This document shows, piece by piece, positions 29,435 to 61,762 of a stretch of 64,000 nt of DNA (the first letter of the stretch is position 1; the number at the start of each line of letters is the position of its first letter). The notes under the pieces are model-generated. The model saw only the letters and a list, made by a program, of their open reading frames with translations, searched no databases and had not been told where the DNA came from. The DNA is taken from the NCBI GenBank assembly GCA_020851035.1, contig JADZDM010000025.1, positions 248,001-312,000 on the forward strand, read 5' to 3'. The position numbers and the translations under genes are program-made. Origin of the DNA: Gemmatimonadaceae bacterium. Lineage in GTDB: Bacteria > Gemmatimonadota > Gemmatimonadetes > Gemmatimonadales > Gemmatimonadaceae.

Positions 29435-29793
29435 ATCGCGCACTGACCGCTGCGCCCACGAATGGTTGCAGGTTGACCTCCCACGCAGCGTGCCAGCACG
29501 CATGCGTCGCGCGCGGCGCGGTGCGTGGTATTCCAGCGGACGCAGGTCGGTGCGCCAGCGCGGCGGATCGGCTGCCTGCGGCGTTCCCGGTGACCCGGTC
29601 GCCCTCGCACGCGCCTGTGCGTGTCTGCTGGCCCGCATCGCACGGCTCACATCGCACGTCGGTCACTCCATGCAGGTCAACCCATGCAGGTGTCGTACCA
29701 GCAGTCAGGCAGTGCGCTCAGCGCAACGCGATGCATGCCCCTGGCAATCCGCCATCCCGCGCTGACCACCACAACCCGGTACAGGGAATGAAG

Positions 29794-32700
29794 ATGAGAC
29801 AAGTGCTCACGGCACTGCTCGGCACCGCCCTGCTCGCGACGCAGGCCCTCGCGCAGCAGAAGACGGTGACCGGCAACGTGTCACGTGAGGGAGGCATCCC
29901 GCTGGCGGGTGTCGCGGTGACCGTGAAGGGCACCGGGCAGGGCACCATGACCAACAATGCGGGCGACTTCTCGATCCGCGCCGAGGTGGGGCAGGTGCTC
30001 AGCTTCCGGCGGATCGGCTACCTGCCGCGCGAGCGGACCGTGGGGGCCGAGAACACCATCCGCGTGATCCTCGAGAACACGGCGGCCGCCCTCGACCAGG
30101 TGGTGGTGACCGCCCTCGGCCAGACCACGGTGCAGCGCAACCTGGGCACCTCGCAGCAGACGGTGGCCGGTGCCGACATCGCGCAGACCGGCCGCGAGAA
30201 CTTCGTGAACTCGCTGCAGGGCCGCGTGGCGGGCGTGGAGGTGACGAGCACCTCCGGCGTGCCGGGCGCCTCGTCGTCGATCACGATCCGCGGCGTGAGC
30301 TCGATCAGCTCCAGCAACCAGCCGCTGATGGTGATCGACGGACTGCCGATGGACAACAAGACGCTGAACACCAACGTGCTGGCGTCGGACGCGCCGGGCT
30401 CGGTGACCGCGTTCAACAACCGCGGCCTGGACTTCACCAACCGCGCCGCCGACATCGACCCGGAGAACATCGAGTCGATGGTGGTGCTGAAGGGGCCCGA
30501 GGCCTCCGCGCTCTACGGCATCGACGCCGCCAACGGCGCGATCGTGATCACGACCAAGCGCGGGCGGGTGGGTGGTGGCCTGGAGTACAGCAACCGGTTC
30601 CGCGTCGACCAGACGCGCGCGCGGCCCACGCTCCAGCGCACCTACGGCCCGTCGACGATCTCTGGGGGCACCCTCGGCGCCTTCTCGTACTTCGGCGCGC
30701 CGTACTCGGCCGGCACCACGTTCTACGACAACATCGACGGCTTCTTCCAGCCGGCGATGACTCAGCACCACAACCTGGCCTTCAGCGGCGCCTCGGCGGA
30801 CAGCCGGCTGAACTACCGCATCTCGGTGTCGGCGGATAACCAGGGCAGCGTGGTGCCGAACTCGGACTACCGCAAGGTGAATCTCAGCGGCGCGACGCAG
30901 GCGCAGGTCACCAGCTGGCTCAAGGCCGACCTGTCGATCCAGTACGCGCAGTCGGACAACTCGCAGGTGTACAAGGGCACCAACGGCCCGCTGATCGGCC
31001 TGCTGCTGTGGCCGCAGACGGACAACGCCAGCGACTACCTGACGCCGGCCGGCACCCGCCGCCGGATCACGAACCTCGCCGCGAGCACCGAGACCGACAA
31101 CCCGTACTTCAACGTCGATCGGAATGCGATCACCAGCACCAACGGGCGCCTGATCGCGAACTTCGGCCTCGTGCTGACGCCGTTCTCCTGGGGCGACATC
31201 CGCGCCACGTTCGGCTCCGACGGCTACACCAACGAGAACCAGATCCTGCGGCACCCGGAGAGCGTGTACGGCAACACCTACAACGGTGTGCTGGACCTCG
31301 CGACCGACGTGACGCGCAACCTGAACTCGCAGACGATCCTGAACCTGCACAGCCGCAAGCTCGTGGGTGACTTCTCGATCAGCGGCCTGGTGGGGAACTC
31401 GATCTCGGACCTGCGTTCACAGGCCAACGCGCTCAAGGGCCAGGACTTCCTGGACCCGAACTTCGTGTCGATCAACAACACGGTGCTGCGGACCAACCGC
31501 ACGACGCTGGCGCAGCGCCGGCTGGTGAGTGCCTACGGGCAGGCGACGCTGTCGTTCCGGGACTACATGTTCGTGAACGTGACGGGGCGCAACGACTGGA
31601 CGTCGACGATCCCCACCGAGCGGAACAGCTTCTTCTATCCCTCGGTCTCGAGCAGCTTCGTGTTCTCGGATGCCTTCCCGTCGGTGGCGAAGTACGTGAC
31701 CGGCAAGCTGCGCGCGGCGTACGCCGAGGTGGGCAAGGACGCACGTCCGTATGCGTACCGCCCGTCGCTGGAGAGCAAGACGACGGCCAACGGCGGCTAT
31801 GGCTACGGCTTCACCGGCCCGAACCTGGCGCTCAAGCCGGAGTTCGCGCGGTCGTACGAGTTCGGCGCCGAGCTGAGCTTCCTGCAGGACCGGCTGGGCC
31901 TGGACGTGACCTGGTACCGCAAGCAGACGCGTGACCAGATCGTGAACGACATCCGCGGCAGCTACGCGACCGGCTTCATCCTGTTCAACCTGAACGGGGC
32001 GGTGACGCGCAACGAGGGCACCGAGATCACGCTCCGCGCCCGCCCGGTGGTGAAGCGCGGGTTCACGTGGGACGTGCTGGCGAACTTCGAGCATGCCTGG
32101 GGCAAGGTGCTCCGGCTGCCGAACGCGCTGCCGGAGTCGTACGTGTCGGACACCTGGCTGTTCGGCAACATCCGCAACGGCACCGCGCCGGGCCTCTCGA
32201 CACGCTCGCTGACGGGCCAGTTCTACCTGCGGAACACCGCCGGCAAGCTGCTGATCGACCCGACCACCGGGTTGCCGCTGCGCTCGACGGCGTTCGTCGA
32301 TGCCGGCTACGATCGCCAGCCCGACTTCACCATCGGCCTGACGAACACGTTCCGGTACAAGCGCTTCTCGCTGAACTTCCTGGTGGACATCCGGAAGGGC
32401 GGGGACGTGTTCAACGCCACCGAGCAGTTCCTGACATCGCGTGGCCTGAGCAACCGGACGCTGGACCGCGACCAGGCCCGGGTGATCGATGGCGTGCTGC
32501 GCGACGGCAAGGAGAACTCCGCCACGCCCACCGCCAACAACATCGTGGTGCTGCCGTCGTCGCAGACGGCGTACTACGAGAACATCAGCGAGGAGCTGTT
32601 CATCGAGCGGAACATCAACTGGGTGCGCCTGCGCGACGTGACGCTGCGCTTCAGCATGCCCGGCAAGTACCTGATGGCGCGCGACGCGAGTGTCTTCGTG

Positions 32701-32859
32701 ACGGGCACCGACCTGTTCGTGTTCACCAACTACACCGGCCTCGACCCGATCGTGAACGGCAACACGGCTGCCGTGGGCGGCTCCGGGGCGTCGGGCATCG
32801 ACTACGGCAACTTCCCGATCCCGCGCGGCCTCGCGTTCGGGCTGACGGTGAGGTACTGA
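29794..32859 (+). CDS. SusC/RagA-type TonB-dependent outer membrane transporter
   Basis: A 1021-residue transporter. A signal peptide (QVLTALLGTALLATQALAQQ) is followed by a carboxypeptidase-regulatory-like beta-sandwich (VTGNVSREGGIPLAGVAVTV), typical of SusC proteins. Next is the plug domain, with LQGRVAGVEVTSTSGVPGAS, SITIRGVSSI and PLMVIDGLPM, and then a large 22-strand barrel ending in an aromatic residue (LAFGLTVRY). It moves oligosaccharides, peptides or other large ligands across the outer membrane with TonB energy. The start is taken at 29794 because AGGGA lies six bases upstream and the ATG at 29788 is too close to it. The SusD partner follows after three bases. No glycosidase lies in this operon, so the ligand may not be a glycan. 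Confidence 0.93.
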   Translation: MRQVLTALLGTALLATQALAQQKTVTGNVSREGGIPLAGVAVTVKGTGQGTMTNNAGDFSIRAEVGQVLSFRRIGYLPRERTVGAENTIRVILENTAAALDQVVVTALGQTTVQRNLGTSQQTVAGADIAQTGRENFVNSLQGRVAGVEVTSTSGVPGASSSITIRGVSSISSSNQPLMVIDGLPMDNKTLNTNVLASDAPGSVTAFNNRGLDFTNRAADIDPENIESMVVLKGPEASALYGIDAANGAIVITTKRGRVGGGLEYSNRFRVDQTRARPTLQRTYGPSTISGGTLGAFSYFGAPYSAGTTFYDNIDGFFQPAMTQHHNLAFSGASADSRLNYRISVSADNQGSVVPNSDYRKVNLSGATQAQVTSWLKADLSIQYAQSDNSQVYKGTNGPLIGLLLWPQTDNASDYLTPAGTRRRITNLAASTETDNPYFNVDRNAITSTNGRLIANFGLVLTPFSWGDIRATFGSDGYTNENQILRHPESVYGNTYNGVLDLATDVTRNLNSQTILNLHSRKLVGDFSISGLVGNSISDLRSQANALKGQDFLDPNFVSINNTVLRTNRTTLAQRRLVSAYGQATLSFRDYMFVNVTGRNDWTSTIPTERNSFFYPSVSSSFVFSDAFPSVAKYVTGKLRAAYAEVGKDARPYAYRPSLESKTTANGGYGYGFTGPNLALKPEFARSYEFGAELSFLQDRLGLDVTWYRKQTRDQIVNDIRGSYATGFILFNLNGAVTRNEGTEITLRARPVVKRGFTWDVLANFEHAWGKVLRLPNALPESYVSDTWLFGNIRNGTAPGLSTRSLTGQFYLRNTAGKLLIDPTTGLPLRSTAFVDAGYDRQPDFTIGLTNTFRYKRFSLNFLVDIRKGGDVFNATEQFLTSRGLSNRTLDRDQARVIDGVLRDGKENSATPTANNIVVLPSSQTAYYENISEELFIERNINWVRLRDVTLRFSMPGKYLMARDASVFVTGTDLFVFTNYTGLDPIVNGNTAAVGGSGASGIDYGNFPIPRGLAFGLTVRY

Positions 32860-32862
32860 GCC

Positions 32863-34497
32863 ATGTCATCCATCACTGAAGCCACGGGAGTGCGCGTGAC
32901 GCGCGCCAATCGCATGGGACGGACGCTGGGGAAGGCCACCCGGACGGCGGCAGTCGCCAGCCTGCTGGTGGTCACCGCCGGCTGCAAGGACTTCCTCGAC
33001 GTCAACACCAACCCGAACGGGCCGCAGGTGGTCTCGGCGAACCTGTACCTGGCGCCGATGCTGCACTGGTTCGTGACGTCCCCCCAGCTCGATGCCCGGT
33101 TCGTGGGGCGCTACACGCAGCAGTGGTCGCTGCCGGGTACGTCGCTCTCCACCTGGGACCGGATGGGCTACGACCCGTCCAGCGACAACGGCGCGCAGCA
33201 GTGGCGTGACGTGTACTGGAGCCTGGGCCAGAACCTGGTGGACATGAACACGAAGGCCGAGGCCGAGCAGCGCTGGGACCTGCTGGGCGTGGGCCAGGTC
33301 CTGAAGGCGTGGGGCTGGCAGGTCACCACCGACCTCCACGGCGAGATCATCGTCAAGGAGGCCATCGACCAGTCGAAGTTCGTGTTCAACTACGACACGC
33401 AGGAGTTCGCGTACCAGGAGATCCAGCGGCTGCTGGGCGAGGCGATCAAGAACCTCCAGCGCGCCGACGGGGCGGTGGACCAGGCCTACCTCGCCCGCAC
33501 CGACAAGATCTACAACGGTGACCGTGCGAAGTGGCTCAAGCTCGCCTACGGCATGCTGGCGCTGAACCTGAACCACTACTCGAACAAGGCGTCGTACAAC
33601 CCCGACAGCGTGATCAAGCTGGTGGACCTGGCGTTCGCCAGCAACGCGGACGATGCGCTGCTGACCTACCCGGCGACGCAGAACGACGACATGAATTTCT
33701 TCGGCCGCACGCGTGCCAACATGCAGAACTACCGGCCCACGCAGTTCGTGGTCGGCCTGCTGAACGGCACCGCGCTGGGCGGGGTGGTGGATCCGCGCCT
33801 GAGCCGGATGCTGCCGGCCGCGCCGGACGGCGTGTACCGCGGCCTCGACATCAACGTCGTCGGGGTCGGGGCGCTCACCACCGCGCAGCAGCCGAACAAC
33901 TTCTACGGGTTCCCCGGCACGGGTGGCCTGCAGCAGCCGGGCCGCTACTTCTTCGACGACAAGGCGAAGATGCCGGCCATGACCTACGCGCAGCTGCAGT
34001 TCATCAAGGCCGAGGCGGCGTACCGGAAGGGTGACCTGGCCACGGCGCTGCTCGCCTACCGCAACGGCGTCTCGTCGCACCTCGACTTCGTGAATGCGCG
34101 GAACCTGGACAACAACCAGTCGCCCACGCAGATCACGGCCACCGAGAAGGCGGCCTTCCTCGGCAACCCGGTGATCGTGCCGCTGGCGCCGGGCGACCTG
34201 ACGCTCACGCAGATCATGTCGCAGAAGTACATCGCGCAGTGGGGCTGGGGCCACAACGAGCTCTGGATGGACATGCGCCGCCACCACTACACCGACCTCG
34301 ATCCGGCCGGTGCGGCACAGGTCTACCCCGGCTTCGCGCCGCCGACGAACCTCTATCCCGACAACGGCGGGAAGATCGTGCAGCGGATCCGTCCGCGCTT
34401 CAACTCCGAGTACGTGTGGAACAGCGCCAGCCTCGGCACCATCGGGGCGCTCGCGCTGGACTACCACACGAAGCCGATGTGGATCACCCTCCCCTGA
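32863..34497 (+). CDS. SusD/RagB-type ligand-binding lipoprotein
   Basis: A 544-residue surface lipoprotein that caps the SusC barrel and presents ligand. The lipobox VTAGC puts lipidated Cys at residue 41, followed by the familiar KDFLDVNTNPN opening. Tetratricopeptide-like helices and the family's late block (LPLAPGDL-like VPLAPGDLTLTQI, then MSQKYIAQWGWGHNELWMDM) are present. The N-terminus before the signal helix is longer than usual; an internal ATG at 32914 would give a more typical signal. It is co-transcribed with SusC and with the DUF4397 lipoprotein. This is the SusD-like-2 (RagB) subgroup by its general appearance. Confidence 0.92.
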   Translation: MSSITEATGVRVTRANRMGRTLGKATRTAAVASLLVVTAGCKDFLDVNTNPNGPQVVSANLYLAPMLHWFVTSPQLDARFVGRYTQQWSLPGTSLSTWDRMGYDPSSDNGAQQWRDVYWSLGQNLVDMNTKAEAEQRWDLLGVGQVLKAWGWQVTTDLHGEIIVKEAIDQSKFVFNYDTQEFAYQEIQRLLGEAIKNLQRADGAVDQAYLARTDKIYNGDRAKWLKLAYGMLALNLNHYSNKASYNPDSVIKLVDLAFASNADDALLTYPATQNDDMNFFGRTRANMQNYRPTQFVVGLLNGTALGGVVDPRLSRMLPAAPDGVYRGLDINVVGVGALTTAQQPNNFYGFPGTGGLQQPGRYFFDDKAKMPAMTYAQLQFIKAEAAYRKGDLATALLAYRNGVSSHLDFVNARNLDNNQSPTQITATEKAAFLGNPVIVPLAPGDLTLTQIMSQKYIAQWGWGHNELWMDMRRHHYTDLDPAGAAQVYPGFAPPTNLYPDNGGKIVQRIRPRFNSEYVWNSASLGTIGALALDYHTKPMWITLP

Positions 34498-34507
34498 GCG
34501 CACTGCC

Positions 34508-35278
34508 ATGAAACTCTTCAGATCCCTGGTGATGCTCCTCGGGGCGGTGTCCCTCGCCGCGTGCGAGAAGAACGCCGTGCAGGACCTCACCTCCGCCGTG
34601 CCGCGGGCACGGATCCGGTTCTACAACTTCGGCCTCGGCGCGCCGGGCGTGAACTTCTACGCCAACGCGATCAAGATGACCGCCATCACCTCGGCCACGG
34701 GCACTGAGGCTGTCACCGGCGTGGCCTACGGTGCCGTCGGGTCGGGCGGGTTCTATTCCTCAGTCGACCCGGGCGAGGTCACACTCACCGGCAAGATCGC
34801 GGCGGCCACCGACAAGGACCTGGCCATCTCGAGCCTCACCACCACGCTCGTGGACGGCAAGGCCTACTCGTTCTACCAGAGCGGGCCGTACAGCACGGCG
34901 ACGAAGACGGTGGATGCGTTCATCGTCGAGGATCCGTTCAGCACGGCGGTGGACTTCACGCAGGCGCGTGTCCGTTTCGTGAACGCGGTCTCGAACGCGG
35001 CGCCGCTCACGCTGTACGTGAAGCACACGACCACGCTGGCCGAGACGGCGATCGGCACCGAGGTGGCCTACAAGGGTGCCGGCACGTTCATCGCGATCCC
35101 CGGCGGCGTGTACGACATCTCCGCACGGCTCACGGGCATGTCCACCAACGCTATCGCCCGCACGGCGGTGTCGTTCTCGGCGGGCAAGGTCTACACCGTC
35201 TCGGCCCGCGGTGACATCACCATCACCTCGGCCACGGCCACCAACCGCCCGTTCCTGGACAACACGGCGAACCAGTAG
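34508..35278 (+). CDS. DUF4397-domain lipoprotein
   Basis: A 256-residue exported lipoprotein. The signal ends SLAAC (Cys19). Two DUF4397-type beta-sandwich repeats follow, the first beginning ARIRFYNFGLGAPGVNFY and the second ARVRFVNAVSNAAPLTLY. These domains often accompany SusC/SusD pairs as surface accessories that may bind ligand. The gene starts ten bases after SusD and ends 22 bases before a strong hairpin, so it closes the operon. Its biochemical role is unknown. Confidence 0.88.
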   Translation: MKLFRSLVMLLGAVSLAACEKNAVQDLTSAVPRARIRFYNFGLGAPGVNFYANAIKMTAITSATGTEAVTGVAYGAVGSGGFYSSVDPGEVTLTGKIAAATDKDLAISSLTTTLVDGKAYSFYQSGPYSTATKTVDAFIVEDPFSTAVDFTQARVRFVNAVSNAAPLTLYVKHTTTLAETAIGTEVAYKGAGTFIAIPGGVYDISARLTGMSTNAIARTAVSFSAGKVYTVSARGDITITSATATNRPFLDNTANQ

Positions 35279-35300
35279 GTGGATGTGCAGTGTGCAGGCA

Positions 35301-35333
35301 CGAACGCCCCCGGCAGGCTGCCGGGGGCGTTCG
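35301..35333 (+). terminator. Strong hairpin closing the SusC-SusD-DUF4397 operon
   Basis: CGAACGCCCCCGGCAG pairs perfectly with CTGCCGGGGGCGTTCG (16 base pairs, one central base, so a loop of a few bases in practice). Only a weak T-containing stretch follows. It stands between convergent units and probably works both ways. Confidence 0.75.
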
Positions 35334-35361
35334 TCGTACGGTGGGGTCGCAGTGGCCGACG

Positions 35362-35820
35362 CTAGCGAGCCTTTGCGGTCGTGGTGATCTCGATGACACC
35401 GAGCTCATGACCCGTCCCGAACATCTGCACGGCGCGATTCTGGTCGTGAAATCGCATTTCCGCGACACTGGTCGCCGGGAGCACGCTGACTTCGTTCACC
35501 GATGGCTGGCGCGTGCCATCGATGTAGTAGACGATCTCGGTCGCGCCGTAGCGGAGGTCGGCGCCGATGTTCGCCGGCATCGCCCGCCCCATCCCCCCGG
35601 AGGTGAGCCAGCGCGGACGAAGCCCCCGGATGATGTCCAGCGCGCTCACGTATGCCCCGATGGAACCCTCGAGATCGTCCCTCGTGATGCGATTGAGGTC
35701 ACCACGCTTCTTCCTGGCCGGTGCCGCCCGTGGAGCCGCCGCGGTGTCTTGCGCGTGTCCGACGACCGGCGTGAGGGCTGCGACTGCCACTGCGAGGAGG
35801 AGGTGACGTCGTCGGATCAT
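35362..35820 (-). CDS. Short secreted TonB-plug-like protein (paralogue 1)
   Basis: A 152-residue exported protein with signal peptide (LLLAVAVAALTPVVGHAQ). The mature part resembles an isolated TonB-receptor plug: RDDLEGSIGAYVSALDIIRG, a strand EIVYYIDGTRQPSVNEV, then GTGHELGVIEITTT, matching the plug's final GxGxIxIxT strand. No barrel follows. It is a clear paralogue of the next gene, of the same length (152 residues). The family may serve as a surface or periplasmic adaptor; its function is unknown. A basic KKRGD stretch follows the signal in both. Confidence 0.75.
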   Translation of the reverse strand: MIRRRHLLLAVAVAALTPVVGHAQDTAAAPRAAPARKKRGDLNRITRDDLEGSIGAYVSALDIIRGLRPRWLTSGGMGRAMPANIGADLRYGATEIVYYIDGTRQPSVNEVSVLPATSVAEMRFHDQNRAVQMFGTGHELGVIEITTTAKAR

Positions 35821-35885
35821 CTGGGCAACGATCTGTGAGGAGTGACTTCCGATCGTCCTGCGAGGGTACCGGACGAATGGCGATC

Positions 35886-36344
35886 TCAGCGCGGCGTGCC
35901 GGTGGTCTTCACCTCGATCACGCCAAGCTCATGCCCGGGCCCGTGCATCTGGATCGCCCGGTTCTGGTCGAGGTACCGCATCTCCAGCACGAGCGCCGCG
36001 CGCAGCGTGATCAACTCGTTCAGGGATGGCTGCCGGTTGCCGTCGATGTAGACGATGATCTCGGTGGCACCGCCGCCGGGCTGTCCGTCGCCGCCGGCCT
36101 GGGCCATCCGGCCCATGGTGGGGTTCAGCCAGCGCGGGCGCAGCGTGCGGATGATGTCGATGGCGGTGACGAAGGTGCTGCCGTTGCCCTCGAAGTCTTC
36201 CTTCGTGAGGCGCATCATGTCCCCGCGCCGCTTCTTCACCGGCTGCGGCTGGGTATCCTGCACCACCACCTGCGCACGCGCGGTGGTCGGCGCGACGAGG
36301 CCGATGGTTGCGGCGAGCAGCACGGGACGCAGGAGACGGCGCAT
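35886..36344 (-). CDS. Short secreted TonB-plug-like protein (paralogue 2)
   Basis: A 152-residue exported protein, upstream tandem partner of the previous gene. A signal peptide ends TTARAQ, then KKRRGDMMRLTKEDFEG, TAIDIIRTLRPRWL, EIIVYIDGNRQPSLNEL and GPGHELGVIEVKTT align with the first paralogue. About half the mature residues appear identical by eye, suggesting an old duplication. It could form the operon head with paralogue 1 (about 65 bases apart). An AT-rich stretch (AATTAGTATCAT on the minus strand) upstream may hold the -10 box. Confidence 0.75.
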   Translation of the reverse strand: MRRLLRPVLLAATIGLVAPTTARAQVVVQDTQPQPVKKRRGDMMRLTKEDFEGNGSTFVTAIDIIRTLRPRWLNPTMGRMAQAGGDGQPGGGATEIIVYIDGNRQPSLNELITLRAALVLEMRYLDQNRAIQMHGPGHELGVIEVKTTGTPR

Positions 36345-36468: not shown

Positions 36469-37800
36469 TCACCCAGCCGCGCCCGCCGGTCGTTCCCAGA
36501 GCCGCGTGAGGGCTCCCTCGTGCGAGGCGGTCCAGAGCCAGCCCGCATCCCCCGCGGCCATGTAGAGGGTGGTGGGCATGAGCTGCTGCCGGAATCCGTC
36601 ACGGACGGCAGCGGTGAGCGACCGCCCCGATGCCAGCGATGCCGCCGCATCCTCGAGCAGTGGCGGCAGGTGGTGCACGATCCGTCCGGCCGCCGAGAGC
36701 TTCTCGCCGTGGATGGCGCCGCCGCCGCCGAGCTGCAGCGCGCCCGCCCACCGGGCCCTGGCGCGCCGTGCGAAGAGCGCCCCGATCGTGCGCGCCACCG
36801 AGGCATGCCGCGACTCGGGGAAGCCGCAGTTGAGCACCATCGCCACCGTCAGCGGCGGCGGCTCGGCATCACCTTGGCGATCCGAGAGGATCGCCTCCAG
36901 TGCCCGCGTGACGAGCGCTGGCAGCGCATCGATGTACACCGGCGCGGCGACGATCAGGAGGTCGTGGGCACGCACCGCGCTGGCGAAGGCGTGCAGTGAC
37001 GCCGCGTCGTGGGCCTCGCGTTGGACGTAGCGCATGGAGACGTCCAGCCCGTGCAGCGCGAGTCGCTCCAGCAGCACGCTGCCGAGCGACTCCGAGGTGC
37101 TGGTGCCGTGTGGCTTCGCGCTGCCGATGAGGAGCATGGCGCGCGTCGGCCGCGGTGCATCCGGCGCCAGCGGCGTCACCGGCAGCAGCGTGTCCACGTC
37201 CTCGATCTCCTCGATCGTGGCGCGGGCGGCCGTGGCCGTGAGGGTGCTGACGAGCGCGTCGCACGCCGCGAAGCCGGCGCCGGACTGGCCGGAGCGATGG
37301 ACGACGCCCACCGAATGGAGCGGTGCGCCGAAGTTGATCGCATTGCGCAGTGCGAGCACCCGGACGACCTGCTCCACATCCGGGTCAGGCGAATCGAGCA
37401 CCGCGATCACGCCGAGGGCCGGCGGGTACTTGTAGCGCGGCACGTGGTGCACCTCGCCATCGATGCGCCGGAAGAACGGCAGCAGCGTGCCAAGCGTGCG
37501 GTCGAGCACCTTCTTCGCCTCGGAGGAGTAGCTGCCGAAGAGCACCGGCGTGACCAGCACGACCACGTCGCACACGGTGAACGCCGCGGAGAGGTCGCGG
37601 CCGGCATCGTCGATCTTGCAGATGCCGGGGGTCTTCGTCCAGCACTCGAAGCAGCCCTGGCAGTAGGCCACCGGCACGTCCCGCAGCGCGAACGTCTCCA
37701 CGGCATAGCGGCGGGCGACGAAATCCGAGGCGACGCGCGCCGTGAGCTCATCGAGCTGCGGATCGGGGCCAGGGGCCGCGTTCAGGATCAGGGCGCGCAT
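36469..37800 (-). CDS. Fused two-domain flavodoxin-like (FMN reductase) protein
   Basis: A 443-residue cytoplasmic protein made of two flavodoxin-like domains. Domain 1 (residues 1 to ~210) begins MRALILNAAPGPDPQ and has a Cys cluster CQGCFECWTKTPGIC (Cys47, 50, 53, 61) like iron-sulfur flavoproteins or the WrbA/NADPH-FMN reductase group. Domain 2 begins near residue 222 with a second phosphate-binding loop, LIGSAKPHGTSTSES, and repeats the fold without the Cys cluster. A fusion of two such domains is uncommon; it may be an intramolecular dimer or electron relay. The start is at 37800 because it begins the first beta strand; upstream codons have no fold. Confidence 0.85.
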   Translation of the reverse strand: MRALILNAAPGPDPQLDELTARVASDFVARRYAVETFALRDVPVAYCQGCFECWTKTPGICKIDDAGRDLSAAFTVCDVVVLVTPVLFGSYSSEAKKVLDRTLGTLLPFFRRIDGEVHHVPRYKYPPALGVIAVLDSPDPDVEQVVRVLALRNAINFGAPLHSVGVVHRSGQSGAGFAACDALVSTLTATAARATIEEIEDVDTLLPVTPLAPDAPRPTRAMLLIGSAKPHGTSTSESLGSVLLERLALHGLDVSMRYVQREAHDAASLHAFASAVRAHDLLIVAAPVYIDALPALVTRALEAILSDRQGDAEPPPLTVAMVLNCGFPESRHASVARTIGALFARRARARWAGALQLGGGGAIHGEKLSAAGRIVHHLPPLLEDAAASLASGRSLTAAVRDGFRQQLMPTTLYMAAGDAGWLWTASHEGALTRLWERPAGAAG

Positions 37801-37924
37801 GGCAGGCGGGGCTCGGGGAGGCTGGCAACATCGTGGCGAGGCCAGAGGGCGAACGATGCCATGCCGCTCGTACTCCGGTGGTAGGCGTTCCCCTGACCGC
37901 GCGTGGTGTGCCACCCGACGGGGC

Positions 37925-37955
37925 GGCACCGGAGAGTATTCCTCTCGTCGGTGCC
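37925..37955 (-). terminator. Hairpin downstream of SnoaL-like gene
   Basis: GGCACCGGAGAG pairs with CTCTC-GT-CGGTGCC (two-base bulge) around a five-base TATTC loop. It lies about 40 bases past the stop of the SnoaL-like gene, in the minus-strand gap before the flavodoxin gene. No T-run follows. Confidence 0.4.
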
Positions 37956-58345: not shown

Positions 58346-61300
58346 TCAGAAGATCACCGGCATCGTCACACCGAGCTTCGCCGCCTTCGCGGTGAAAGCG
58401 GCGAGGTCGCCGGACACCAGTCCGCCGAACCGCTGCTTCAGCCCGTCGAGCTGCGTGCGCAGCATGCCATAGACCGCGACGTGCTGGTCGGTGGGCCGGA
58501 AGTCGGCGCTGGACGCGGCCACGTCGCTGCCCACCGATGCCAGCTTCTCGTAGAGCTGGTTCGGGGTGCGGAACGCATCCTCGCGCGCGCCGGTCAGCGC
58601 CACGTCGTACAGCTTCGCCTCGATGTCGAGCACCTTCTTCTCGACCTCGTCGATGTCCTTCAGGAACGCCTCGGCATCGGCGATCGAGAGGTTGCGGGCC
58701 GGCGACGGGCCGTACTCGCGCAGGTCTCGGAGCCGCTCGCGCACGTTGCTGCGCAGCTGCTCGAAGCCGCGCCGGCTCCACTCCGACTCGTCGATGAGCG
58801 CCACCGTCTCGTTCAGCGCCTCGCGGATCCGGAGGGCGAGGGCCACCTGCGCGGTGATGTCGGCGTCGGTCCCCTCGCTGTTCGGGTCACGGCGCACCTC
58901 GAGTTGCCGGCGCAGCGTGTCGCCCTTCCAGACCATCGCCACGGTGTAGGTGCCCGGTGCCACCAGCGGCCCGACCTGGCCGCCGACGAGGTCCAGGTCC
59001 CACGGCACCAGCGGGCGGGAGTCGGCCACCTTGAGCGTGGTGTTCCCGGGCGGCGCCACGCGCAGCTTCGCCTTGCGCGGACCTTCGTGGCGCAGGTCCC
59101 AGAGCGCGCGGTTGAGGCCGCGCTTCGCCGGCGCGCCCCGGAAGCGCCGGATCAGCGCGCCGCTGGCATCGTAGACGCGGAACTGCACCGCGTCCCGCGC
59201 GGTGGAGTCCGTCGGCAGTGCCGCGACGGTGTAGTTGATCGTCGCGGCCAGCGGCGGGTCCTCGCCGTTCACGAGCGAGTTGGGTGACCCGGTCGGCGTG
59301 GAGATGCGGCGGAAGCGGTAGGCCGCGCGCAGCGGGAGCAGGACGGCCGGCTTGGTGGCGATCGAGTCGGCCAGGGTGCGCAGGTACGAGATGTCGTCGG
59401 CGATCCAGAAGCCGCGGCCGTACGTGCTCACCACCAGGTCGTGGAAGTGGCCCTGCACCTGCAGCCAGCTCACCGGGGCGTGGGGCAGGGCACCGTTGAT
59501 CTCGATCCAGTTGGCACCGTCGTTGAGCGAGACGTACAGCGCGTTCTCGGTGCCGGCGTAGAGCATGCCCTTCCGCACCGGGTCCTCGCGCACGACGTGC
59601 ACGTAGGCGAAGACGCTGCGCGGGATGTCGCTGCTGATGCGCACCCAGGTCCGGCCGTAGTCGGTGGTGCGGTAGATGTACGGGTCGCGGTCGTTGATCA
59701 GGTGCGCGTCCACCGCCATGTATGCGGTGCCGGCGTCGTACTTGCTCGGCTCGATGGCCGAGATGGTGCTCCACTTCGGCAGCCCGGGGACGTTGGCGGT
59801 GAGGTTGGTCCAGGTGGTGCCGCCGTCGCGCGTGATGTGCACCAGGCCGTCCATCGTCCCCGCCCAGATCACTCCTTTTTGCAGTGGTGACTCGGCGATC
59901 GCGAACAGCACCGTCACGTTCTCGACGAACAGGTTGTCGGTGACGAGTCCGCCCGACGAACCCTGCTTCGTGACGTCGTTGGTGGAGAGGTCGGGGGAGA
60001 TGATCGTCCAGCTCTGGCCGCCGTTGGTGGTGCGGTGCACGAACTGGCTGCCCACGTACACCGTGTTGTGGTCGTGCGGCGACATGTGGATCGGGAACGT
60101 CCACTGGAAGCGGTACTTCAGGTCTTTCGGTGGCACGCCGTAGCCCGCCTCCGGCCACGGTTCCACGGCCCGCGCCATCCGCGTCTGCAGGTCGAAGCGC
60201 TCGAGGCCGGCATCGTAGCAGCCGCTCCAGACGGTGCGGTTGTCCACGGTGTCGGGGATGGCCCAGCCGCTCTCGCACCCGCCGACGGCACTCCAGACGC
60301 CGATGTTCCGCGACCCGCGCGAGTTGCTCGGCCCGCCATACGAGTAGCCGTCCTGCCGGTTGCCGTAGAGGTTGTACGGGATCTTCGTGTCGGTGGCGAC
60401 GTGGTACATCTGCGCGTTCGGCAGCGCGATGCGGTTGAACGACCTGCCGCCGTCGATCGTGATGCCGACGCCGCCGTCGTCACCCACCACGAACCGGTCG
60501 GCATCGGACGGGTCCCACCAGATGTCGTGCAGGTCTCCGCCGGCGCGCGGGGCGTTCGGCATCTTGGTCACGCCGCCGTCGCTGCTGCCCACGAAGCGCA
60601 CGCCGACGATGTAGAGCCGGTCCGCCTCGGTGGGGCTGATGCCGAAGCGGGTGTAGTACTGCGGCCGTTCGAGGATGTCGTGGTCGCGGTTGACGACACG
60701 CCAGGACCGGCCGCCGTCATCGGAGCGGTAGAGTGCCGGCTCCTTCATCTCGATCAGGGCATAGAGCCGGTTGCGGTCGCTGCGTGCCACGCCGACGGCG
60801 ATCTTGCCCATCGTGCCGGCCTTCGGCAGTCCCCGGCCCCAGCCGTTGCCGTCGGCCTGGCCGTCCAGCCGGATCCAGGTGTCGCCGCCGTCGCGCGACA
60901 TGTGGATGCCGCTGCCGTTGCCGCCCGAGTGCTTGTCCCACGGCACGATGTACTGCTGCCATGAGGCCGCGAACAGCACCCGGGGGTTCGACGGGTCCAT
61001 CGCCACGTCGATCACGCCGGTGCTGTCGTTCACGAACAGCACCTTCTTCCAGCTGCGGCCACCATCCAGCGTGCGCCAGAGCCCGCGTTCCGGCTGCGGT
61101 CCGTAGCCGTGGCCCTGCGCCGCCGCGTACACGATGTCGGGGTTGGCGGGATGGATCACCACGCGGCCGATGCGGCCGGTGTGCTCCAGCCCCATCCGCT
61201 CCCAGTGCCGGCCGGCGTCGGTGGAGCGGTAGATGCCGTCGCCGACGGAGATGTTGCTGCGCAGGAAGGTCTCGCCGGTGCCGAACCAGACGATATTCGG

Positions 61301-61621
61301 GTCGCTTGCGGCGACGGCGATCGCACTCACCGACGAAACCCGCAGCGAGTCCGTGACCGGCACCCACCGGATGCCACCGTTGGTGCTCTTGAACAGGCCG
61401 CCGCTGGCGGCACCGGCGTAGTAGGTGCGGTACTCACCCGGCACGCCGGCCACCGCGATCACGCGGTTGCCATCGGGCCCGACGAAGCGCCACGACGGCA
61501 CCTTCACGAACGCGGTGTCGAGGCCGGTGCCGCGCGGGGGCACCGGTGCCGGCACGGTGCGCTGGGCCACGAGGAGACTGGGCACGAGACAGGTGAGGCA
61601 CAGCGCGGTACGGAAGTGCAT
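58346..61621 (-). CDS. Large secreted Asp-box (VPS10/BNR-type) propeller protein
   Basis: A 1091-residue exported protein. After a signal peptide (TALCLTCLVPSLLVAQ) come two large propellers rich in Asp-box motifs such as STNGGIRW, STDAGRHW, TLDGGRSW, SRDGGDTW, SDDGGRSW, TTNGGQSW, TRDGGTTW and TTDYGRTW, typical of sortilin/VPS10-like and sialidase folds. The last ~300 residues hold a beta-sandwich and a helical region. Often annotated as a glycosyl hydrolase, it lacks obvious sialidase Arg-triad context, so a binding role is more likely. Such giants are common in soil Gemmatimonadota, Acidobacteria and Bacteroidota. The start at 61621 begins the signal peptide; an upstream in-frame ATG would not. 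Confidence 0.88.
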   Translation of the reverse strand: MHFRTALCLTCLVPSLLVAQRTVPAPVPPRGTGLDTAFVKVPSWRFVGPDGNRVIAVAGVPGEYRTYYAGAASGGLFKSTNGGIRWVPVTDSLRVSSVSAIAVAASDPNIVWFGTGETFLRSNISVGDGIYRSTDAGRHWERMGLEHTGRIGRVVIHPANPDIVYAAAQGHGYGPQPERGLWRTLDGGRSWKKVLFVNDSTGVIDVAMDPSNPRVLFAASWQQYIVPWDKHSGGNGSGIHMSRDGGDTWIRLDGQADGNGWGRGLPKAGTMGKIAVGVARSDRNRLYALIEMKEPALYRSDDGGRSWRVVNRDHDILERPQYYTRFGISPTEADRLYIVGVRFVGSSDGGVTKMPNAPRAGGDLHDIWWDPSDADRFVVGDDGGVGITIDGGRSFNRIALPNAQMYHVATDTKIPYNLYGNRQDGYSYGGPSNSRGSRNIGVWSAVGGCESGWAIPDTVDNRTVWSGCYDAGLERFDLQTRMARAVEPWPEAGYGVPPKDLKYRFQWTFPIHMSPHDHNTVYVGSQFVHRTTNGGQSWTIISPDLSTNDVTKQGSSGGLVTDNLFVENVTVLFAIAESPLQKGVIWAGTMDGLVHITRDGGTTWTNLTANVPGLPKWSTISAIEPSKYDAGTAYMAVDAHLINDRDPYIYRTTDYGRTWVRISSDIPRSVFAYVHVVREDPVRKGMLYAGTENALYVSLNDGANWIEINGALPHAPVSWLQVQGHFHDLVVSTYGRGFWIADDISYLRTLADSIATKPAVLLPLRAAYRFRRISTPTGSPNSLVNGEDPPLAATINYTVAALPTDSTARDAVQFRVYDASGALIRRFRGAPAKRGLNRALWDLRHEGPRKAKLRVAPPGNTTLKVADSRPLVPWDLDLVGGQVGPLVAPGTYTVAMVWKGDTLRRQLEVRRDPNSEGTDADITAQVALALRIREALNETVALIDESEWSRRGFEQLRSNVRERLRDLREYGPSPARNLSIADAEAFLKDIDEVEKKVLDIEAKLYDVALTGAREDAFRTPNQLYEKLASVGSDVAASSADFRPTDQHVAVYGMLRTQLDGLKQRFGGLVSGDLAAFTAKAAKLGVTMPVIF

Positions 61622-61762
61622 GGCTCTGGGGCGGAAGAGAGTGGCGCCTGGCGACGGGTGGGAATGTCGCCCCTGCCTCATCCGTGCGCGAGGCACCCTG
61701 ACACATCACCCGCGCCGGCAGGGTGGAGGGTTGGCCCCGAACTTGCCGCCCGGTTCAGGGGC

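Follow-up and report, generated by a model that had tools for sequence, protein, structure and literature searches.

Barrel-less proteins with a predicted TonB-plug fold encoded in tandem in a Gemmatimonadaceae bacterium

TonB plugs are normally regarded solely as parts of receptors, and the soluble plugs produced in the laboratory retain the TonB box. A soluble plug of FhuA was reportedly the subject of work by Braun et al. in 2003, as the title has it. For FpvAI, a soluble plug complements the plug-less barrel in trans (PMC10994204), and an isolated plug of FepA bound ligand at 5 uM though behaving as unfolded (PMC11658791). The two proteins analysed here, termed A and B, resemble these laboratory plugs (FpvAI and FepA, and FhuA by the title just cited) in that a plug is produced alone. 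The laboratory plugs are artificial parts of one receptor, whereas A and B belong to a family of natural genes for which no clear plug-less barrel was found.

By sequence comparison, A and B are closest to the plugs of SusC/RagA-type receptors (PF07715), which they resemble in modelled fold and in profile alignment (97.3%); the DG and closing GVI..TTK stretches of those plugs have counterparts in the free-plug family. Unlike SusC/RagA receptors, A and B have no barrel and no CarboxypepD_reg domain, are shorter and fall below the Pfam cut-off, while the family shows no TonB-box pattern in 98 of 99 members and has a G..H..G.I motif of its own. The same genome encodes two further proteins that, like A and B, are barrel-less with a plug-like end:

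L084:655-1806 (contig C2, at C2:61725): barrel-less CarboxypepD_reg protein of 383 aa whose C terminus is plug-like
L115:721-1812 (contig C21, at C21:410077): barrel-less CarboxypepD_reg protein of 363 aa whose C terminus is plug-like

Unlike A and B, they carry CarboxypepD_reg domains, and Pfam gives a Plug match for the C21 protein only; they make up a second kind of barrel-less plug protein. Of the known plug fold, this phylum-wide family of natural genes lacking barrel and TonB box represents a novel form. A literature search by titles and abstract openings, with subscription papers mostly outside it, found no description of these proteins, and an earlier description is possible.

The tandem pair and its surroundings

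The window, i.e., the whole stretch of 64,000 nucleotides that was analysed, contains the following features in and around the pair:

29473..32859, plus strand: TonB receptor of SusC/RagA type, 1128 aa, carrying a plug of its own and convergent with the A/B pair
32863..34497, plus strand: SusD-like protein
34508-35278, plus strand: DUF4397 protein with a lipobox-like start, directly 3' of SusD in the SusCD gene group
35300..35334, no strand: perfect 17-bp inverted repeat, candidate two-way terminator, separating gene A from the convergent DUF4397 gene
35362..35820, minus strand: protein A, 152 aa, signal peptide and barrel-less TonB-plug-fold domain at about residues 40-150 (ORF, profile, AlphaFold, Foldseek)
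35752..35820, minus strand: approximate signal peptide of A (heuristic signal scan; cleavage near ...GHA/Q placed by eye)
35886..36344, minus strand: protein B, 152 aa, signal peptide and barrel-less TonB-plug-fold domain (ORF, profile, AlphaFold, Foldseek, VIA)
36273..36344, minus strand: approximate signal peptide of B (heuristic signal scan; cleavage near ...ARA/Q placed by eye)

The sequence-only reading had described two paralogous open frames of 152 residues at these positions, and this is borne out by the open reading frames and by a BLASTP alignment of A with B (49% identity over 148 aa, E 3e-47, one gap). The genes are 65 bp apart, with B upstream of A in the direction of transcription. 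The 152-aa form of B begins at an ATG at 36344 that opens a signal-peptide-like stretch; its open frame extends further upstream to a possible start at 36806, which lies within a flavodoxin-like ORF. At 36469-37929 of the window, on the minus strand, lies the gene of a 486-aa protein that may be a fused double flavodoxin, having two FMN_red/flavodoxin-like stretches. The A/B pair adjoins the SusCD genes and lies outside their operon, since the two groups are convergent and the 17-bp inverted repeat separates them. A terminator scan that requires a T run made no call at this repeat (35300-35334).

Homology to TonB plugs and predicted fold

The plug identity of A and B is not a matter of routine annotation, because the Pfam Plug model gives no match to either at E up to 1 and its gathering score is not reached. 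Neither Pfam nor NCBIfam searches name A or B as a plug, and a search of PDB sequences with B alone returned one irrelevant match (E 0.59). More sensitive comparisons relied on a family profile, A2, an alignment of 26 members with A and B among its rows; it matches A at 2.1e-41 and B at 1.6e-46, both being rows of the profile itself. Three of its 26 members match Pfam Plug at E up to 0.1, the best at 6.2e-4. Searched against 177,635 PDB sequences, A2 gave eight matches at E up to 10, all of them to outer-membrane proteins that are either SusC/RagA-type or TonB-linked; E was 2e-4 to 3e-4 for three RagA entries and 0.25 to 0.99 for the remaining five. On the source genome it recovered six family members and then ten matches at E up to 1: eight lie over receptor plug ends, a ninth covers the plug-like end of a CarboxypepD_reg protein, and the tenth is weak and interrupted by an internal stop. 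The plug end of the neighbouring SusC is matched by A2 at E 0.0036 (C25:278451-278561, i.e., window 30451-30561). When A2 was aligned by hhalign with the plugs of 17 receptors from the source genome, the result was 97.3% with E 2.8e-11, against 5.4% and E 0.0071 for the best column-shuffled control (50 controls, best six listed; an unparsed control would drop out). In the reverse search, PF07715 matches one member of a tandem triple on contig C28 at E 0.005, below its cut-off. By these methods, more sensitive than Pfam, A and B are homologous to TonB plugs at the sequence level.

The predicted structures of A and B adopt a plug fold in the models. AlphaFold gave a pLDDT of 79 and a pTM of 0.65 for B, and 74 and 0.60 for A; most of the domain is confident in both models, with low confidence in the signal peptide and in a loop, which in the model of B lies at about residues 81-90 (block mean pLDDT 58). 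Among the best 50 of 110 Foldseek matches of B in the PDB, ranks 1-41 are TonB receptors, led by BtuB at 2.3e-3, and five of the other nine are SUMO or mevalonate-3-kinase at E above 1.5. For A, all of the best 50 of 75 matches are TonB receptors, the top one at 5.7e-3; neither protein has a Foldseek match in the PDB at E 0.001 or below. VIA-align of B likewise returned TonB receptors in all 50 matches listed, where the absence of other folds carries no weight, and its best match has a Z of 7.8 over 92 residues at 3.4 A (model residues 42-149). The tool's own guidance places a Z under 8 as middling, and the case for the fold therefore rests on the agreement of all methods. The sequence-only reading had proposed a receptor plug with no barrel and had named structure prediction of each protein as a check; no unrelated fold appeared, TonB receptors match first, and the proposal is supported by the sequence profile, the profile-profile comparison with its controls and the predicted fold.

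Family anatomy, distribution and gene neighbourhoods

The anatomy of the family was described from 99 frames with long matches (E up to 1e-10) in 81 stretches picked for holding a member, 20 of them from a contig scan and 60 from further sets, plus the window. A stop codon lies within 0-5 residues of the domain end in 92 of the 99 members, whose ends coincide with the point where a receptor barrel would begin. A and B also terminate after the plug, and no beta-barrel follows. A signal-like start was found in 98 of 99 (40 type I, 37 lipobox and 21 with a hydrophobic region only, against one with none) by a lenient scan that chooses the most signal-like start codon and is biased towards signals; A and B are both signal-like by the same scan. 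A short linker (quartiles 9, 15 and 22 residues) joins the signal to the domain. It carries a TonB-box pattern in one of 99 members, against 14 of 17 receptors of the source genome, by a regular expression written after the receptors had been viewed and applied to their first 22 residues, whereas family linkers are often shorter (median 15). The domain has a median length of 110 residues, compared with 142 for the receptor stretches, the two not being cut identically. A histidine of the last loop, in the pattern G..H..G/A.I/V/L, is conserved in the family only (77 of 99 members versus none of 17 receptors). Conversely, the E.IEVLKG-type motif is found in one member of 99 and in 16 of 17 receptors, and the full IRG-type motif in 36 of 99 members and 15 of 17 receptors, with an arginine a few residues after WL conserved at 88%.

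The family is widespread in Gemmatimonadota. With A2 at E up to 1e-8, a profile built from members in these same genomes, it was detected in 262 of 395 genomes and in 98 of 138 genera, with up to at least eight copies per genome; 11 candidates per genome were scored, and copy numbers are lower bounds. A single-sequence search found it in 191 of 395 genomes at E up to 0.001. The recurrence of similar short proteins in this phylum, put forward in the sequence-only reading together with the suggestion of a copy-number survey, is thus confirmed and proves large. The source genome has six members: A and B in the window, a single gene on contig C5 and three in tandem on contig C28 (G000 C28:45978-47351; L004, L057). 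The triple is of lipobox type and lies downstream of an ORF that resembles a lytic transglycosylase by eye, with a divergent sortilin/VPS10 protein nearby. Related tandem members occur in a genome of the same genus (G393; L131).

The subfamily of the window pair bears the signature YLDQNRA...GPGHE. The 17 close homologues that were fetched occur as one member per stretch, none in tandem, and a 30-row tree places A and B together as sisters (99/99), with branches of 0.66 for A and 0.26 for B; given this sister relationship, the duplication in the window is lineage-specific among the sampled genomes. Two members are present in 18 of 60 further stretches, on one strand in 13 of these, the 60 being taken from the top of a list rather than at random, with several orthologous or from the same genome, and the second member in L153, L169 and L175 matching only in pieces. 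The suggestion that the duplicate is kept by selection fits a dN/dS of 0.40 between A and B, and purifying selection is seen in ten close pairs chosen by the analyst, where values run from 0 to 0.35. Presence of the family in 262 of 395 genomes, together with a dN/dS between 0 and 0.35 in the close pairs, shows that A and B are not chance open frames.

A plasmid search with one f5 member matched one of 72,556 records, in Gemmatirosa. A gene of the plug family appears to lie on a megaplasmid of Gemmatirosa kalamazoonensis (NZ_CP007129.1; G080:C3, 1,106,233 bases). The contig scan returned 18 loci, 17 of them titled as Gemmatimonad and one as Candidatus Kuenenia; the latter, CALQGY020000055.1 (L070), titled Candidatus Kuenenia stuttgartiensis, carries the family and is probably mislabelled.

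Gene neighbours are conserved within clades and differ between them (20 annotated neighbour clusters; counts from 68 stretches, the family gene having been missed by the gene picker in 13 of 81). They include, in different clades, an ABC-type ATPase with DUF1800, a phosphodiesterase, SusCD, MurB and a Glu/Gln-type tRNA synthetase. A single functional theme was sought among the 20 annotated clusters and rejected, as the clades differ, and no transporter type recurs beside the gene across clades in these clusters. Shared synteny with the window was likewise discarded: the stretches of the 17 close homologues give only scattered matches, and the window genes matched all lie over 11 kb away from A and B.

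In f5, a family that includes genus g70, eight stretches (L149, L153, L155, L159, L171, L172, L176 and L164) have the order SusC-SusD-plug on one strand. Seven of them belong to genus g70 and have a similar gene order, L164 being the other; in G344, the free-plug gene likewise comes after SusC-SusD on one strand. A conserved protein of about 450-470 aa (cluster 105; ...VFLDCASRNCN..YFRTELPWVNWVR...) is encoded 3' of the plug gene in f5 loci:

L153:6552-7934, and L155, L159, L171, L172, L176, L149 and L169: conserved protein encoded after the plug gene

As a candidate plug-less barrel, this protein gives only weak matches, to OMP_b-brl_3 (0.011) and DUF481 (0.075). Sortilin-Vps10/BNR proteins account for 17 open frames in the source genome, one of them at window 58346-61696 on the minus strand. 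Sortilin/VPS10 lies near two of the three own family loci (C5 and C28), a post hoc observation in which many loci are orthologous and from which no link is claimed.

Possible roles of a plug without a barrel

A split receptor, in which plug and barrel are encoded as two genes, seems an unlikely reading of the pair because nearly every barrel detected in three genomes has a plug just upstream. This survey covers the barrels detected by PF00593, each counted as plugged if a PF07715 match lies no more than 2,500 bases upstream of the PF00593 match on the same strand. Plugged barrels numbered 28 of 29 in the source genome, 32 of 32 in G039 and 37 of 38 in G058, the exceptions being a barrel below the family cut-off in the source genome and a 358-aa open frame in G058. 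At G058:C1:2347045-2349515, a plug match is followed by a barrel match in a different open frame (562 and 579 aa), a frameshifted or split receptor.

That a free plug docks in receptor barrels as a gate, a spare cork or a competitor of the covalent plug seems unlikely to us. Nearly all PF00593 barrels surveyed already have a plug close upstream, the TonB-box pattern is found in one of 99 members, the median domain length is 110 residues versus 142 in the receptor stretches (with cuts that are not identical), and the window pair is convergent to SusCD and outside its operon. The sequence-only reading had suggested that the pair may regulate or gate TonB receptors, bind ligand in the periplasm or serve as surface adaptors. 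Of these, TonB-driven gating loses probability, as the TonB box is missing and no clear plug-less barrel was found. Such docking would nevertheless have a precedent in FpvAI, whose soluble plug complements a plug-less barrel (PMC10994204). It would also suit the SusC-SusD-plug order on one strand in the seven g70 stretches and L164, as well as the G058 plug and following barrel in two frames, whether these reflect a frameshift or, conceivably, a split receptor. Competition between free and covalent plugs could occur. A large set of free, partly lipid-anchored plugs in Gemmatimonadota might even cork or regulate SusC-type barrels in trans, independently of TonB, which we consider quite improbable; if true, they would be a natural, many-gene version of the FpvAI soluble-plug complementation.

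A periplasmic ligand-binding protein, in which the ligand-contacting face of the plug would have been turned to binding a metal, a cofactor, a glycan or a similar small substrate, is a doubtful alternative. The histidine of the last loop, conserved in 77 of 99 members and in the family only, speaks for it, as does the isolated FepA plug, which bound ligand at 5 uM (PMC11658791). A single conserved histidine is nonetheless a thin basis for a metal site, the loop at about residues 81-90 in the model of B is of low confidence (mean pLDDT 58), and no transporter type recurs across clades among the 20 annotated neighbour clusters. Decaying receptor fragments devoid of function would account for the cut at the plug-barrel boundary and for the branch of A being longer than that of B (0.66 vs 0.26), yet the presence of the family in 262 of 395 genomes, the dN/dS of 0 to 0.35 in ten close pairs and the signal-like starts in 98 of 99 members make this explanation extremely improbable.

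The reading favoured here, to which we give about an even chance, is that exported free plugs were cut from a receptor barrel and reused as periplasmic binding or interaction modules that function without TonB energy. A receptor plug was probably severed from its barrel at the plug-barrel boundary, and the paralogous Gemmatimonadota family to which A and B belong has duplicated in place repeatedly. The proteins would remain in the periplasm, lipobox members elsewhere sitting on a membrane that faces it, and the retained plug sheet would serve a small binding or protein-interaction role; no TonB energy would be used, and the proteins would not be the working plug of a plug-less barrel. Both the periplasmic location and the binding or interaction role of the family are what we infer. 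Neighbours differ between clades in the 20 annotated clusters, and we therefore favour reuse of the plug as a small exported domain for binding or interaction. Among the points against reuse as such a module are the SusC-SusD-plug order in g70 and G344, which would fit a receptor role, and the retention of much of the plug.

A natural family of free plugs under selection offers a direct test of whether plugs fold and work alone, and it also lets one ask whether barrels take plugs in trans in nature. In Gemmatimonadota, a poorly studied phylum, the plug reading accounts for a class of small exported proteins.
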